A stretch of DNA of 64,000 nt, taken from positions 1-64,000 of the forward strand of contig DUMS01000086.1 in the NCBI GenBank assembly GCA_012839745.1. The letters run 5' to 3'. The stretch's first letter is position 1, and the number at the start of each line of letters is the position of its first letter. Made by a program: the position numbers and the translations under genes. The notes under the pieces are model-generated. The model saw nothing but the letters and a program-made list of their open reading frames with translations, ran no database searches and was not told where the DNA came from. Below are positions 2,542-9,029 of the stretch, one piece after another. The stretch is from Tissierellia bacterium. GTDB lineage: Bacteria > Bacillota > Clostridia > Tissierellales > Tepidimicrobiaceae.

Positions 2542-2576
2542 AAATAAGACAAGAGAACCGTCCCCTTGTCTTATTT
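2542..2576 (-). repeat. REP-like hairpin copy B
   Basis: 35-bp identical to copy A; overlaps the stop codon of the adjacent CDS. Confidence 0.9.
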
Positions 2577-2825
2577 TAGCTTATTTATGATTTCTTCTAA
2601 TAAATCCTCTAAATCCTTTTCATCCTGTAAGCAAAATATCCCGTATTTGCTTTTATATTCATCCTTGTTAATGCATTCAGACCAGCAGCCCTTTACAATT
2701 AGCAATAGGTCTGGTATTGTCCTGCCATCATAGGGCTTTATTTTTATTGGTATCCTTTCCTGTATCCTTTTAATGGCACCAGCCCTATCATAGCGAGAGT
2801 TGCACCCTCCGCAGTATTTAACCAT
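2571..2825 (-). CDS. Small conserved-type protein with CGGCNxRYDR motif, unknown function (ORF extends upstream to 2900)
   Basis: MVKYCGGCNSRYDRAGAIKRIQERIPIKI...; last gene of the 4-hydroxybutyrate operon. Start chosen by motif position. Confidence 0.6.
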   Translation of the reverse strand: MVKYCGGCNSRYDRAGAIKRIQERIPIKIKPYDGRTIPDLLLIVKGCWSECINKDEYKSKYGIFCLQDEKDLEDLLEEIINKLK

Positions 2826-2871
2826 GAAGCTAAAGTCCTGCAAAATATCACTCTTCCTATTTGTAAACCGA

Positions 2872-4230
2872 TTATTCAATAGTTCCGCTGGTTTCTTCAA
2901 CTAATTTTTCTTTCTTAACATTGCTCAACAATAAATGCAATAATATTCCTACTGCAAAACCCCATGCTGCACCCTTTGTTGCCAATATTGCTCCCATAGT
3001 TCCTGCTATTCCTCTTTCCATATCATTATCGCACATGTTCATTGCCAGCCTTGTGCATATGAATCCCTGTACCAGTAATGTCATGGATAAAGCAACAGGC
3101 AATACCGGTTGAACTAGAGATACAATAGGTACCAGCATTACACTTATAAATGTTGACCATCTAAATGTACCAACACCGCTGAATATCGAATCCATAGCTT
3201 TTCTGCCTTCCTTATACCTTTGTGATACTGCTGCTGTTACAGCTGCCCACAATGGTCCGCATAGAGGCACATAAGGGCTGATAATGGATTGAACCAGATT
3301 CCTGAATGCACTTACTAAATTAGAGCGGTTTGAATTAAAATCAATTATTTCATCATCTCTTACGGAACTTGCTTCACTTATAAGGGCTTCACTGGTTACG
3401 AAATCCCCGAAAGCAATAATATAAGCTACAAATGCCATTGGCAACGCATTAATGAATAAATCTAGAGCTGGAAATCCTATTCCAATTGGGCTTACAGTTC
3501 TTATAATGTCACCTATTTGAGGTATTTTAATCACTGATCCTATTTCTATTTGTGGAACTGGTAATTCTCCTGCCAATGGTCCAATTATTATTCCTATAAC
3601 TATTGCAGGAAGCATTCCATATTTGCCTAAGGCATTGACAAATTTATATTTTCTTCTAAGCGCTCTAAATCCCTCAGAAAACAATAGGTAATATGCTACC
3701 AGACATCCTATGGAAATTGATATTGGATAGATTCCAAATCTGCCGCTTTCCTTAAATTCACCAACTATTGCAGCTACTCCTGCCCCCAATAATATACCGG
3801 CTTTTAATGAATTTGGAACCAGGTTGATAAGTTTTCCTGCTAATCCTGTCAACCCCATTATCAGAAATATAGCTCCTACTAAAATCTGCAGGGCTACTAA
3901 TGCCTGAATTCTCTCTGGCCCCAGTGCATATTGCCCTAAATATGCAGTTGTAAGTGGTATGGCAGGTGTTATCCAGCCTGGTACAACAGGATCCCCAAGT
4001 AAGGCATGAATTGAATAAAAGAATCCATTTATTATAACCATAGACCATGCAATATCAAATGGAATTCCTAAGGTTTCTGTTAATATTGGAATTGCTCCCA
4101 AGCAGGTAGCGCACATCAATATACCCTGTATTGCTTCAGACCATTCCCATTTGTAGTGTATGAAAGGCAATCTTATTTTAAATATTCCAGCTGGTATATA
4201 AGGCTGCTCTTTTCCGTGCTCTCTTCTCAT
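2872..4230 (-). CDS. Polytopic membrane transporter, NCS2/xanthine-uracil permease-like fold
   Basis: Many hydrophobic helices; GWITPAIPLTTAYLG...; GGGGGAAG-type RBS before MRREHGKEQPYIP. Confidence 0.65.
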   Translation of the reverse strand: MRREHGKEQPYIPAGIFKIRLPFIHYKWEWSEAIQGILMCATCLGAIPILTETLGIPFDIAWSMVIINGFFYSIHALLGDPVVPGWITPAIPLTTAYLGQYALGPERIQALVALQILVGAIFLIMGLTGLAGKLINLVPNSLKAGILLGAGVAAIVGEFKESGRFGIYPISISIGCLVAYYLLFSEGFRALRRKYKFVNALGKYGMLPAIVIGIIIGPLAGELPVPQIEIGSVIKIPQIGDIIRTVSPIGIGFPALDLFINALPMAFVAYIIAFGDFVTSEALISEASSVRDDEIIDFNSNRSNLVSAFRNLVQSIISPYVPLCGPLWAAVTAAVSQRYKEGRKAMDSIFSGVGTFRWSTFISVMLVPIVSLVQPVLPVALSMTLLVQGFICTRLAMNMCDNDMERGIAGTMGAILATKGAAWGFAVGILLHLLLSNVKKEKLVEETSGTIE

Positions 4231-4282
4231 ATATACTTCCCCCTTATTGCTTATTATTTTCATTTGCTGTTAACTCTCATTT

Positions 4283-5599
4283 TTAGTATAATAACTTTTC
4301 CAATCTAAACTGCCCAAATCTCTTGACTGCCTCTTCCATTAACATATCTCTAAAATCCGGATGTGCAACTTTTATTAATTCCATTGCCCTTTCTCTTAAT
4401 GTCTTTCCTTTTAACTCTGCTATTCCATATTCAGTTACTACATAATGAACCTCATTCCTTGGGGTGGTAACAGCAGCGCCTTCATCTAAAAATGGCACTA
4501 TTCTGGACACCTTTCCCTTGCCTGCTACTGAGGGCATGGCAATAATTGATTTTCCACCTTTGGATAATGTGGCTCCCCTTACGAAGTCAACCTGTCCGCC
4601 TACACCACTGAACTGTTTATGTCCAATTGTTTCTGCATTTACCTGTCCCATTAGATCCACCTGAATTGCTGAGTTTATGGAAACCACCTTATCATTTTGG
4701 CTGATTACATATGGATTGTTTACATAGTCCACAGGATAAAGCTGTATGCTTGGATTATCGTTTACAAAATCATATAGCTTTTTGCTGCCCATGAGGAATG
4801 TTACAATTGATTTATTTGGATGCAGCTTTTTCATCCTGTTGTTAATTACTCCACTTTCAATAAGGTTTAATACTCCATCGGAAATCATTTCGGAATGAAT
4901 TCCCAAATCCTTTTTATCTCCCAAAAAGGATAATACTGCATCTGGTATTGCGCCAATTCCCAATTGGAGTGTGGAACCATCTTCTATAAGCTGAGCACAG
5001 TATTCTCCTATTTTTCTTTCCACATCTCCTATTTTGGGAGGTTGAAGTTCTATTAGAGGTTCAGAAGCTTCAACTATATAATCTATATCGTCTATGTGGA
5101 TAAAGTTGTCCCCAAGAACCCTTGGCATCTGGTCGTTTACCTGGGCTATAACAATCTTTGCACATTCAGCTGCAGGCTTTGTATAGTCACAGGAAATTCC
5201 AAAGCTGCAATATCCATTTGCATCAGGCTTAGACACCTGAATCAGTGCCACATCAACTGGAAGCCTTTTTCTGAACAGCTCAGGAACCTCATGGAAAAAA
5301 CAAGGTGTATAATCCCCTCTTCCCTCTGCTATAGCTTCCCTGGTGGATGCTCCTACAAAGATGGCATTGTGCCTGAAATGCTTTGCCATTTCAGGTTTCA
5401 TATATTCCCCTTTTCCCATGGCTACCATATGGACAATTTCCACATTCTCATATTCATCGTGATTTCTTACCATGGCTTCCACAAGGGTTTGGGGCTCTCC
5501 AGTAGCATGGGCTATTACTACCCTGTCCCCTGATTTTATATGTTTAACTGCTTCATCAGCAGTGCAAAGCTTACTTAAGTATCTATCCTTCCAGCTCAA
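4283..5599 (-). CDS. abfT: 4-hydroxybutyrate CoA-transferase / acetyl-CoA hydrolase family
   Basis: GDRVVIAHATGEPQTLVEAM, GVGGQVDFVRGA, EYGIAELKGKTLRERA; next to abfD. Confidence 0.85.
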   Translation of the reverse strand: MSWKDRYLSKLCTADEAVKHIKSGDRVVIAHATGEPQTLVEAMVRNHDEYENVEIVHMVAMGKGEYMKPEMAKHFRHNAIFVGASTREAIAEGRGDYTPCFFHEVPELFRKRLPVDVALIQVSKPDANGYCSFGISCDYTKPAAECAKIVIAQVNDQMPRVLGDNFIHIDDIDYIVEASEPLIELQPPKIGDVERKIGEYCAQLIEDGSTLQLGIGAIPDAVLSFLGDKKDLGIHSEMISDGVLNLIESGVINNRMKKLHPNKSIVTFLMGSKKLYDFVNDNPSIQLYPVDYVNNPYVISQNDKVVSINSAIQVDLMGQVNAETIGHKQFSGVGGQVDFVRGATLSKGGKSIIAMPSVAGKGKVSRIVPFLDEGAAVTTPRNEVHYVVTEYGIAELKGKTLRERAMELIKVAHPDFRDMLMEEAVKRFGQFRLEKLLY

Positions 5600-5628: not shown

Positions 5629-5910
5629 TTATTTTATTTTCAGCAATTCCTTTGCCAGAGAAATCATTTCTTCTGACAAACCAGTCTCAACAGTTATATC
5701 CTCTAACCCTTTTACCCTATCCTTTAGGTTGAGCTTTATCAAGTTGTCAATTGTGCTTATTGAGCTGGGACAGGTACAGCACTGTCCCAGCAGCCTAAGC
5801 CTCAATTGCCTTTTTTCTTCATCAAATTCCAGAATCTCAATATCTCCTCCATGCAGCCTTAACTGTGGCTTAATAACCTCTTCCAGTACCTTTATAATTT
5901 CAGCTAACAT
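5629..5910 (-). CDS. NifU-like C-terminal domain protein
   Basis: VIKPQLRLHGGDIEILEF and GQCCTCPSSISTIDNLIK. Confidence 0.85.
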   Translation of the reverse strand: MLAEIIKVLEEVIKPQLRLHGGDIEILEFDEEKRQLRLRLLGQCCTCPSSISTIDNLIKLNLKDRVKGLEDITVETGLSEEMISLAKELLKIK

Positions 5911-5915
5911 ATTAT

Positions 5916-7367
5916 CTAGTCCTCTATATCCAGTATATCTTTTACCAGCTGTTTCTTCCTTTCAAGATTTGACTGCCTGCTTATCATTATTCTCTGTGCC
6001 TGAGGTGAACCTGCTCCATGTAAGGATTCTGTCCTATATCCTACTGCTGCTGTACCTAAGGTCATGTTTTCTATGAACCTCAATACCTTCATCCTGTTGA
6101 TTGTAGGCACACTTGCTACTCCCTTCAGGTACTTCTCTACATACTTGCCTATTTCAGGGTGTTTCAGGTCTTTTTCAGAAGGCATGGTTACAAATATTCC
6201 TCCTGCTATGTCTTCTGCAAGCCTTGCTATTTCATATGGGAATCTTGTTACATTCTGCTTGCACACGTTTGCAAGAAGCATATCTATTTCATAATTGCCA
6301 GCTTTAGTCTTATGCCCTTCGCAGGAGCATGCTATACCACAGGAATAAAGGGTTTCATTCAGATGCACCATTTCTATTATCTTATCCTTTATATGTGAAG
6401 CCTTTGGCACACCATTGTAGTCAGCTATCAATGCAGCAGCTCCTATTAGTACATCTCCAACTCCTACCTTGCAACCACCGTAGCTTTGCCTGTGATATCC
6501 TGCAAACCTCTCTACTAATATGCCTGAGAAATCATATTCCCCGCACATAAATATTCTTTCATTTGGAACAAATACATTGTCAAATATTACTAAAGCTTCA
6601 TGTCCGCCGAATTTTGGATTTCCTACATCTAATTTTCCCTCTTCCAGTTTTCTGGTGTCGCAGGATTGTCTTCCGTAAATAATTGTAATTCCCTCTGCAT
6701 CTGTTGGTACTGCAAAGCACACTGCATAATCCTTGTCCTCTTCCCTCATGGTTTGAGTAGGCATTACCAGAACTTCATGGGAGTTAACCATACCTGTTTG
6801 GTGAGCCTTGGCACCTCTTACTACAATTCCATCTTCTCTTCTTTCCACAATGTGCAGGAATAAGTCTGGATCCGCCTGCTGTGATGGTGATAAACCTCTG
6901 TCCCCCTTAGGGTCAGTCATTGCACCGTCTACTGTTAAATCCTCCTCCTGAACGTATTTTAGATATTCAACAAATCTATCATGATAATTTGTACCATATT
7001 TTTCATCTATCTCAAATGTAGTACTGTACACTGCATTAAAAGCATCCAATCCTACACAGCGCTGGAAACAGGAAGCTGTTTTCTGTCCTACCAGTCTTTG
7101 CATTTTTACCTTTTTAACCAGGTCTTCTGTGCTGTTATGTAAATGTGTAAAGCGGTTTATCTTCTTGCCTGTCAGTGTAGATGTGGCTGTCATTAAATCC
7201 TCATATTCAGGATTTTGTGCCAGTTCATATGTCATTGCAACTGAATTTAAGGAAGGCCTTATAATTGGATGGTCTACAGGATTCTCCACCTTCTCCCCCA
7301 TCAAATAAACGTTTAGCTTAAGATTCCTTAGACTGTCAATGTACTCCTTTGCAGTTTTTAAAGCCAT
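5916..7367 (-). CDS. abfD: 4-hydroxybutyryl-CoA dehydratase / vinylacetyl-CoA delta-isomerase
   Basis: Cluster-ligand type motifs TASCFQRCVGLDAF and HRQSYGGCKVG; MTDPKGDRGLSPSQQADPD; GAKAHQTGMVNSHEVLVMP. Confidence 0.95.
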   Translation of the reverse strand: MALKTAKEYIDSLRNLKLNVYLMGEKVENPVDHPIIRPSLNSVAMTYELAQNPEYEDLMTATSTLTGKKINRFTHLHNSTEDLVKKVKMQRLVGQKTASCFQRCVGLDAFNAVYSTTFEIDEKYGTNYHDRFVEYLKYVQEEDLTVDGAMTDPKGDRGLSPSQQADPDLFLHIVERREDGIVVRGAKAHQTGMVNSHEVLVMPTQTMREEDKDYAVCFAVPTDAEGITIIYGRQSCDTRKLEEGKLDVGNPKFGGHEALVIFDNVFVPNERIFMCGEYDFSGILVERFAGYHRQSYGGCKVGVGDVLIGAAALIADYNGVPKASHIKDKIIEMVHLNETLYSCGIACSCEGHKTKAGNYEIDMLLANVCKQNVTRFPYEIARLAEDIAGGIFVTMPSEKDLKHPEIGKYVEKYLKGVASVPTINRMKVLRFIENMTLGTAAVGYRTESLHGAGSPQAQRIMISRQSNLERKKQLVKDILDIED

Positions 7368-7403
7368 AAAATCACTCCTTTTGTTATTTTATCTTTTATA
7401 TAG

Positions 7404-7421
7404 CTGCAACAACTGTGCCAA
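7404..7421 (-). promoter_or_regulatory. Sigma-54 (-24/-12) promoter of abfD operon: TTGGCACAGTTGTTGCAG
   Basis: GG-N10-GC spacing within consensus TGGCAC-N5-TTGC; 37 nt upstream of the abfD ATG. Confidence 0.9.
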
Positions 7422-7440
7422 TAAAACCTATTAAATAAAA

Positions 7441-7490
7441 AAATTGCAAAGATTCAGAAACAATCGGTGATGGAATCTTTGCAATTTTTT
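7441..7490 (-). terminator. Rho-independent terminator after the EBP gene (reads both ways)
   Basis: AAATTGCAAAGATTC ... GAATCTTTGCAATTTTTT hairpin with flanking A/T runs. Confidence 0.8.
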
Positions 7491-7539
7491 ATCATCTATC
7501 CATATTAGACTCTAAATGTATATCCAAATAAATATATAT

Positions 7540-7603
7540 TTGCAGTATTGCAATTATTGTACTTAACAAATTGCAGTATTGCAATTCATTTGCAGAACTG
7601 CAA
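7540..7603. promoter_or_regulatory. Three palindromic upstream activator sites TTGCA-N4-TGCAA
   Basis: TTGCAGTATTGCAA at 7540..7553 and 7571..7584; TTGCAGAACTGCAA at 7590..7603. Confidence 0.8.
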
Positions 7604-7607
7604 TTTA

Positions 7608-9029
7608 TTATCCTCTTGATTTTCTGGTTATTGTGGAAGGATGAACTTTTAATAGCTCAGCTGCCCTTTTCTTGTTGCCGCACTTTGCTATAGCTGCATC
7701 AATCATCTTCTTTTCAAATACTTCCATTGCCTTGTTTAACCCCATGCCAAGAAACTTTGCTATAAAATCCTCTTCCTGAGCATCTCTACTTCCTTTTTTG
7801 TTTTTAAATATATATGAAGGTAAATTCATAACATCTATCTTATCATCATGGGTAATTATTATCAGGTGCTCCACCAAGTTTTTTAATTCTCTTACATTAC
7901 CTGGCCAATGATATTCCTTTAATGCTTCCAGTGCTGATACAGTAAAGTATTTATTGGATCCGTATTTTTTATTGAAGTCATTCAGAAAATTAATGCACAA
8001 ATCTGGAATATCATCCTTTCTTTCCCTTAGCGGAGGGATTTCTATGGGAATAACGTTAAGCCTATAGTATAAATCCTCTCTGAACAATCCCTTTTTCACC
8101 AAATCTTCCAGATTCTTATTGGTAGCTGCTATTATTCTGACATTTACCTTTTTTGCCTTATCCCCTCCTACAGGCTTGATTATTCCCTCGTCTATGGCCT
8201 TAAGGAGGCTAACCTGAATGTCCAGACGTGCTTCTGAAATTTCATCCAGAAATAATGTTGAATTGTGGGCTAGCTCAAATACCCCGATTTTCCCCTTTTT
8301 AGAAGCCCCTGTAAAGGCACCGCTTTCATATCCAAACAGTTCTGATTCAATAAGTGTTGGTGGTATTGAGCCACAATTTACCTCTATAAAAGTATAATCC
8401 TTCCGTGAGCTGTTATCATGAATGAACTTTGCAGCCATGGTCTTACCTACTCCAGATTCTCCGGTAAGGAGTATGGTAGTATCGAATTTTGCCACCTTTA
8501 GCAAAGTCCTGACCAATTGTACTGTTCTCTTATCCTTTACCACAAATCCCGGATGCTGCATCATCTGTTCCTTTATATTTTCCAGTTCTGAACGATATTT
8601 CTGATACAAGGCTTCCGTAAGAGATAGCTTTTCTTTAAGCTTTACCAAATCAGATATATCTCTGACATTTGTTACTATAAATTCCCTTTTTCCATTTTTA
8701 TTGTATACCGGGGTACTTGTAACCAGTATTTCCTTTCCTGAAATCAGCTTTTGCCTCAAAGTAACCTGCTTTCCGGTACGTATTACTTCAAGGGAGCCGG
8801 ATTGATTATAGTAGCCTTCTTCCACCAGTTGAGCCATGTTCTTTCCTATTACATATTCTGCATCAATTCCGGTAATCCGTTCATAGGCCTTATTCAGCAT
8901 CAATACATTTGCTTCTCCATCGGTAACAAATATTCCATCGTAGGATGAATCGATTATTGCCTTTAATGAATCATACAGGAATTTATACTTATTTAATTCC
9001 TCGGTTATCTTTTTACTTGTGTTTTCCAT
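7608..9029 (-). CDS. Sigma-54-dependent enhancer-binding protein (PAS, AAA+, Fis-type HTH)
   Basis: Walker A GESGVGKT, ESGAFTGA sigma-54 contact motif, C-terminal Fis-like KKRAAELLKVHPSTITRK. Confidence 0.95.
   Translation of the reverse strand: MENTSKKITEELNKYKFLYDSLKAIIDSSYDGIFVTDGEANVLMLNKAYERITGIDAEYVIGKNMAQLVEEGYYNQSGSLEVIRTGKQVTLRQKLISGKEILVTSTPVYNKNGKREFIVTNVRDISDLVKLKEKLSLTEALYQKYRSELENIKEQMMQHPGFVVKDKRTVQLVRTLLKVAKFDTTILLTGESGVGKTMAAKFIHDNSSRKDYTFIEVNCGSIPPTLIESELFGYESGAFTGASKKGKIGVFELAHNSTLFLDEISEARLDIQVSLLKAIDEGIIKPVGGDKAKKVNVRIIAATNKNLEDLVKKGLFREDLYYRLNVIPIEIPPLRERKDDIPDLCINFLNDFNKKYGSNKYFTVSALEALKEYHWPGNVRELKNLVEHLIIITHDDKIDVMNLPSYIFKNKKGSRDAQEEDFIAKFLGMGLNKAMEVFEKKMIDAAIAKCGNKKRAAELLKVHPSTITRKSRG

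Follow-up and report, generated by a model that had tools for sequence, protein, structure and literature searches.

The window, the 64,000-nucleotide stretch of Tissierellia bacterium DNA analysed here, carries an operon headed by abfD, the gene for 4-hydroxybutyryl-CoA dehydratase, behind the gene of a putative sigma-54 activator (EBP), and thereby raises the question of how this operon is switched on and which protein throws the switch. On the features described below, positions 7404–7603 very probably hold the enhancer and promoter of a sigma-54 regulon specific to one pathway, through which the adjacent EBP would control the 4-hydroxybutyrate operon.

Elements between the EBP gene and abfD

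The region and its flanking regulator gene comprise the following features, in the order in which the minus strand is read:

7608..9029, minus strand: EBP gene, 473 aa, with PAS, AAA+ (with GAFTGA) and Fis-type HTH domains (Pfam PF00989, PF00158, PF25601, PF02954)
7590..7603, no strand: UAS 1 (distal), ATTGCAGTTCTGCAAA on the minus strand, exact match, leave-one-out PWM score 12.7
7571..7584, no strand: UAS 2, exact match, PWM score 16.4, 19 bp from UAS 1 in the conserved distal doublet
7540..7553, no strand: UAS 3 (proximal), exact match, PWM score 15.5
7437..7488, minus strand: predicted intrinsic terminator between UAS block and promoter, dG -16.9, z -4.63, T7 tail
7404..7421, minus strand: sigma-54 promoter TTGGCACAGTTGTTGCAG (-24/-12), perfect consensus, reading from 7421 to 7404

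The EBP combines an AAA+ Sigma54_activat domain containing GAFTGA and Walker motifs with a C-terminal Fis HTH, as bacterial EBPs do, and these Pfam domains bear out the original prediction of a PAS-AAA-Fis EBP gene upstream of the palindromes. The protein, whose recognition segment reads HPSTITRK, is probably the activator of the abfD operon. About twenty EBPs are encoded in the genome, and rpoN is present on another contig.

The -24/-12 element, predicted as near-consensus, proves to be a perfect match with the GG-N10-GC spacing intact, and it lies 36 nt before the abfD ATG (7367); transcription of abfD is expected to start near 7393–7394. Within the window, TGGCAC-N5-TTGCW occurs with zero mismatches only at this promoter, while the genome as a whole holds 24 perfect copies of TTGGCAY-N5-TTGC versus 0 of a reversed control pattern. 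Another -24/-12 sequence at 5642–5657, with one mismatch, falls inside the 3' end of a NifU-like gene and is read as coincidence.

All three TTGCA-N4-TGCAA palindromes sit between the EBP stop and the abfD promoter, with UAS 1 beginning 4 nt past the stop codon and the centres lying ~127, ~158 and ~177 nt upstream of the -24 GG. Their exact sequence, their place just past the EBP stop and the spacing of their starts (31 and 19 bp) agree with the original prediction. Its helical-turn reading needs adjustment, 19 bp being about 1.8 turns rather than 2, and its distance of 120–200 bp holds when measured from the promoter but not from abfD (173–236 bp). Across the 2.17 Mb genome, the exact palindrome occurs at 5 sites, 3 of them here and the other two in unrelated sequence, one coding and one intergenic; sites with one mismatch number 102. 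A genome-wide check named alongside the prediction covered 21 of the 24 perfect -24/-12 sites, the abfD promoter included, and the 400 bp upstream of each of the 20 others contained no exact palindrome. One stray TTGCA-N4-TGCAA match is flanked by a repeat containing AATCTTGGAGTGGAGGCTCGTTCTTTGCTATATGCA (L002 1445–1480 and 1637–1672, G000 C80).

The predicted terminator is built from a 16-bp stem and a 17-nt apical stretch followed directly by T7, and TTGCAA stands at the stem base in both arms. This stable fold with its immediate T run upholds the claim that a terminator separates EBP gene and operon; a simple scanner missed it because the loop is too long.

Conservation and co-variation among related loci

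Searches with the EBP and AbfD were run over 249 genomes of the order, and with AbfD also over 391 of the class, and the flanks were fetched. A related EBP lies directly before 4-hydroxybutyrate genes at 34 loci (31 after removal of near copies), and these orthologous loci span many families. A profile search of genome contigs with the EBP alignment was discarded, having returned mostly unrelated EBPs, with an AbfD relative in 2 of 80 loci.

When all 5-bp inverted repeats with gaps of 0–12 are searched over the 31 intergenic regions, TTGCA-N4-TGCAA ranks top, being exact in 14 (at most 1 in shuffles) and present with no more than one mismatch in 27, versus 1.9 in shuffles. The consensus among relatives is GTTGCA-WWWW-TGCAAC, arranged in a conserved layout in which a doublet spaced 18–19 bp, the commonest doublet spacing, sits at the EBP stop and a proximal site usually follows 55–92 bp on. 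In the window the doublet is retained, at 19 bp, but the third site follows after only 31 bp, and the UAS scores fall below the relatives' best. The first gene after the EBP is abfD, sucD, 4hbD (4-hydroxybutyrate dehydrogenase) or a permease gene, always of the same pathway; the regulator therefore follows the pathway rather than one gene. Upstream of abfD genes with an adjacent EBP, the sites are found in 22/25 cases and a sigma-54 promoter in 23/25; where no EBP adjoins, the figures are 6/34 and 12/34, respectively.

In the EBP tree, the 4-hydroxybutyrate-linked proteins and the window EBP form one supported clade (99/94), within which the window EBP is a long branch (1.31) of unsure exact place; its HTH tail is truncated. 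In the recognition segment, the identity of the residue immediately before RK varies together with that of the outermost base pair of the site. Specifically, EBPs with V face a flanking G or C in 56 of 58 sites, and those with T (the window, L103, L096 and L097) an A/T flank in 7 of 7, a contrast that its Fisher value overstates because only about two independent changes or lineages underlie it. The window EBP belongs to the T class and its sites carry an A/T outer pair, so that, at the level of sequence, the co-variation ties this EBP to these sites.

The motif is absent from more distant EBPs (group C). A related EBP clade (L114, L115, L116, L118, L123, L124 and L020) shows the same core and a sigma-54 promoter, with sites near-fixed at ~60, ~118 and ~147 from -24, before an isochorismatase-family (N-carbamoylsarcosine amidase-like) gene.

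Terminators and rpoN in the loci of relatives

In 12 of the 31 related loci a terminator-like hairpin has a palindrome at its apex, versus 0.7 expected from a folding-based null of 120 shuffles that keep the palindromes (maximum 3). The nested hairpins, found in L067, L070, L072, L078, L079, L085, L101, L103, L228, L231, L232 and L119, carry their T run in the same orientation as the EBP gene, and their arms differ in sequence among loci yet stay complementary. They represent about ten lineages, since L078, L079 and L085 are close relatives. The idea of nesting arose from the order-level loci, and of nine class-level loci fetched later three (L228, L231 and L232) show it, where the null rate predicts ~0.2. 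An earlier, strict test, later replaced by the folding test, counted palindromes only where their nesting in a terminator was perfect; as it required almost perfect stems and long T runs, it found just 3–5 of 31 (null 0.7–0.8). The distal doublet was also tried as a terminator, and its 4 of 31 is not above the null of 2.2. Unlike these nested relatives, the window has its terminator separate from the palindromes. No precedent for UAS/terminator overlap was found in the literature searched, which is weak evidence of novelty.

In two genomes (G139 and G142; L096 and L097) the gene order is EBP-rpoN-abfD-abfT-permease, and in a third (G091; L105) it is rpoN-EBP-permease-abfD-abfT; the G091 locus yielded no TTGCA site. 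In each of the three genomes, rpoN occurs once and only one strong EBP match is present, and sigma-54 is apparently dedicated to one pathway there. With one rpoN and one strong EBP in the 4-hydroxybutyrate locus, these may be natural minimal sigma-54 systems. A speculative and rather doubtful extension is that enhancer site and EBP terminator have been coupled in evolution, that EBP binding and readthrough may interact, that in the window the two have been separated with TTGCAA left at the stem base, and that some lineages have captured sigma-54 to serve only the 4-hydroxybutyrate pathway.

Several other explanations bear on the same elements. Transcription of abfD might start from a sigma-A promoter, and the palindromes might serve as operators for an unrelated dimeric regulator, repressor or activator, whose gene lies elsewhere; indeed, where no EBP adjoins, certain abfD genes lack sites and sigma-54 promoter alike and must be expressed in another way. 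This is nevertheless very unlikely for the window, where the promoter is a perfect -24/-12 and the sole one with sites among those checked in the genome, and it accounts poorly for the co-occurrence of sites and -24/-12 elements with an adjacent EBP and for the co-variation of flanking bases with the EBP recognition helix. A reading in which the palindromes act mainly at the RNA level, as 3' UTR hairpins or as a terminator for the EBP mRNA, and do not function as enhancers is at least as hard to credit. The distal doublet does fold as a hairpin (dG -19, z -5.7), and the site is often the terminator apex in relatives; however, the 14–16 bp core is conserved as sequence with N4 fixed, whereas the terminator arms are not, and in the amidase-linked clade, which has no such hairpins, the core is the same and its distances from -24 are near-fixed. 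A broader role, in which the EBP controls a wider promoter set and the 4-hydroxybutyrate genes are only one target, gains from the second target operon of XanR in Clostridium (PMC6615313) and from the many one-mismatch sites in the genome, but is improbable, since the 20 other perfect sigma-54 promoters that were checked all lack a site in the 400 bp upstream. Control of abfD by the adjacent EBP through these UAS and the sigma-54 promoter is favoured because the exact elements are rare, the orthologous loci conserve them, sites and promoter co-occur with the EBP, residue and base co-vary, and rpoN is present in the genome and, in some relatives, in the locus itself.

The operon and the proposed switch

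The apparent operon extends from abfD through four further genes:

5916..7367, minus strand: abfD, 4-hydroxybutyryl-CoA dehydratase (PDB 1u8v, E 4e-241; CxxxC and HxxxYxxCK conserved)
5629..5910, minus strand: small NifU-like protein of 93 aa, encoded between abfD and abfT (PF01106, E 8e-17)
4283..5599, minus strand: abfT/cat2-type 4-hydroxybutyrate CoA-transferase, corresponding to 'ach' in the XanR operon (PDB 3eh7, E 4e-179; 3gk7, E 4e-167)
2872..4263, minus strand: permease recurrent in 4-hydroxybutyrate clusters (44–74% identical gene in many such loci)
2571..2900, minus strand: small protein with a CGGC motif, encoded by the final gene of the apparent operon (abfD clusters contain weak homologues)

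The AbfD and AbfT identities are firm on homology. AbfD matches 1u8v over its full length and keeps the cysteines and histidine that we take to be the cluster ligands. The NifU-like gene was unlisted among the open reading frames, being below the 100-aa cut-off, and the CGGC-motif gene overlaps the end of the permease gene. Domain and family model searches gave the permease no confident name; in some relatives its gene directly follows that of the EBP, and it is a candidate 4-hydroxybutyrate transporter. Searches of this genome, which is 86% complete (~14% missing), turned up no close relatives of SucD or 4-hydroxybutyrate dehydrogenase, though both kinds occur in other genomes of the set, SucD serving as the search control. 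Uptake of external 4-hydroxybutyrate thus appears likelier than synthesis from succinate, and is the simplest reading of these absences together with a permease in the operon. The word fermentation in the original label accordingly needs a qualifier. A Y1 (IS200-like/REP-associated) transposase-family gene lies at 1358–2149, near the operon end.

From these elements we infer a switch in which dimers of the EBP would occupy the three TTGCA-N4-TGCAA palindromes that lie immediately past the EBP gene. The PAS domain would receive a signal, most likely 4-hydroxybutyrate or a derivative, upon which the AAA+ domains would assemble and the intervening ~130–180 bp of DNA would loop. ATP hydrolysis would then open the sigma-54 RNA polymerase held at 7404–7421, and transcription of abfD-nifU-abfT-permease-CGGC would support 4-hydroxybutyrate uptake and activation to crotonyl-CoA. 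The terminator at 7437–7488 would keep readthrough from the EBP gene out of the operon.

This type of switch is not a new idea in clostridia, because sigma-54 control has already been predicted in two reports. XanR and sigma-54 were predicted to control abfD-nifU-hyp-ach-golB in Clostridium (Nie, Dong and Yang 2019, PMC6615313), and the window EBP likewise adjoins an operon starting abfD-nifU-abfT(ach), which agrees with Table 1 of that report in beginning abfD-nifU and containing ach; the window operon differs in continuing with permease and CGGC genes. The XanR UAS motif is described there as distinct, and the comparison with the window rests on gene content and this description rather than on motif sequence (PMC6615313). 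At genome scale, COG2368 genes (aromatic ring hydroxylase/4-hydroxybutyryl-CoA dehydratase) were predicted to be sigma-54 dependent in Clostridia (PMC12316311), but in the accessible part of that report no EBP, site or architecture was found. The exact cis-code, the co-variation of regulator and site, the captured rpoN and the terminator nesting look new, with XanR compared by description and not by motif; the accessible part of the XanR account makes no mention of embedded rpoN, co-variation or terminator nesting (PMC6615313). They offer a testable cis-code for the 4-hydroxybutyrate metabolism of anaerobes (TTGCA-N4-TGCAA as an 18–19 bp doublet plus a proximal site); to this they add a candidate rule by which Fis-type EBPs match residue to base, and candidates for the sensor and the transporter of 4-hydroxybutyrate.

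Two further EBP systems invite comparison. PrdR, the EBP of C. difficile proline reductase, is the closest NCBIfam model to the window EBP and shares its sensor-AAA+-Fis architecture, but the window protein scores 399 bits versus a cut-off of 795 and has a different target; the PrdR UAS is of the TGT/ACA type with a 10–12 bp spacer (PMC6615313). The N-carbamoylsarcosine amidase-like loci have a related EBP, the same core and a sigma-54 promoter, and differ in their target and in the near-rigid positions of their sites.
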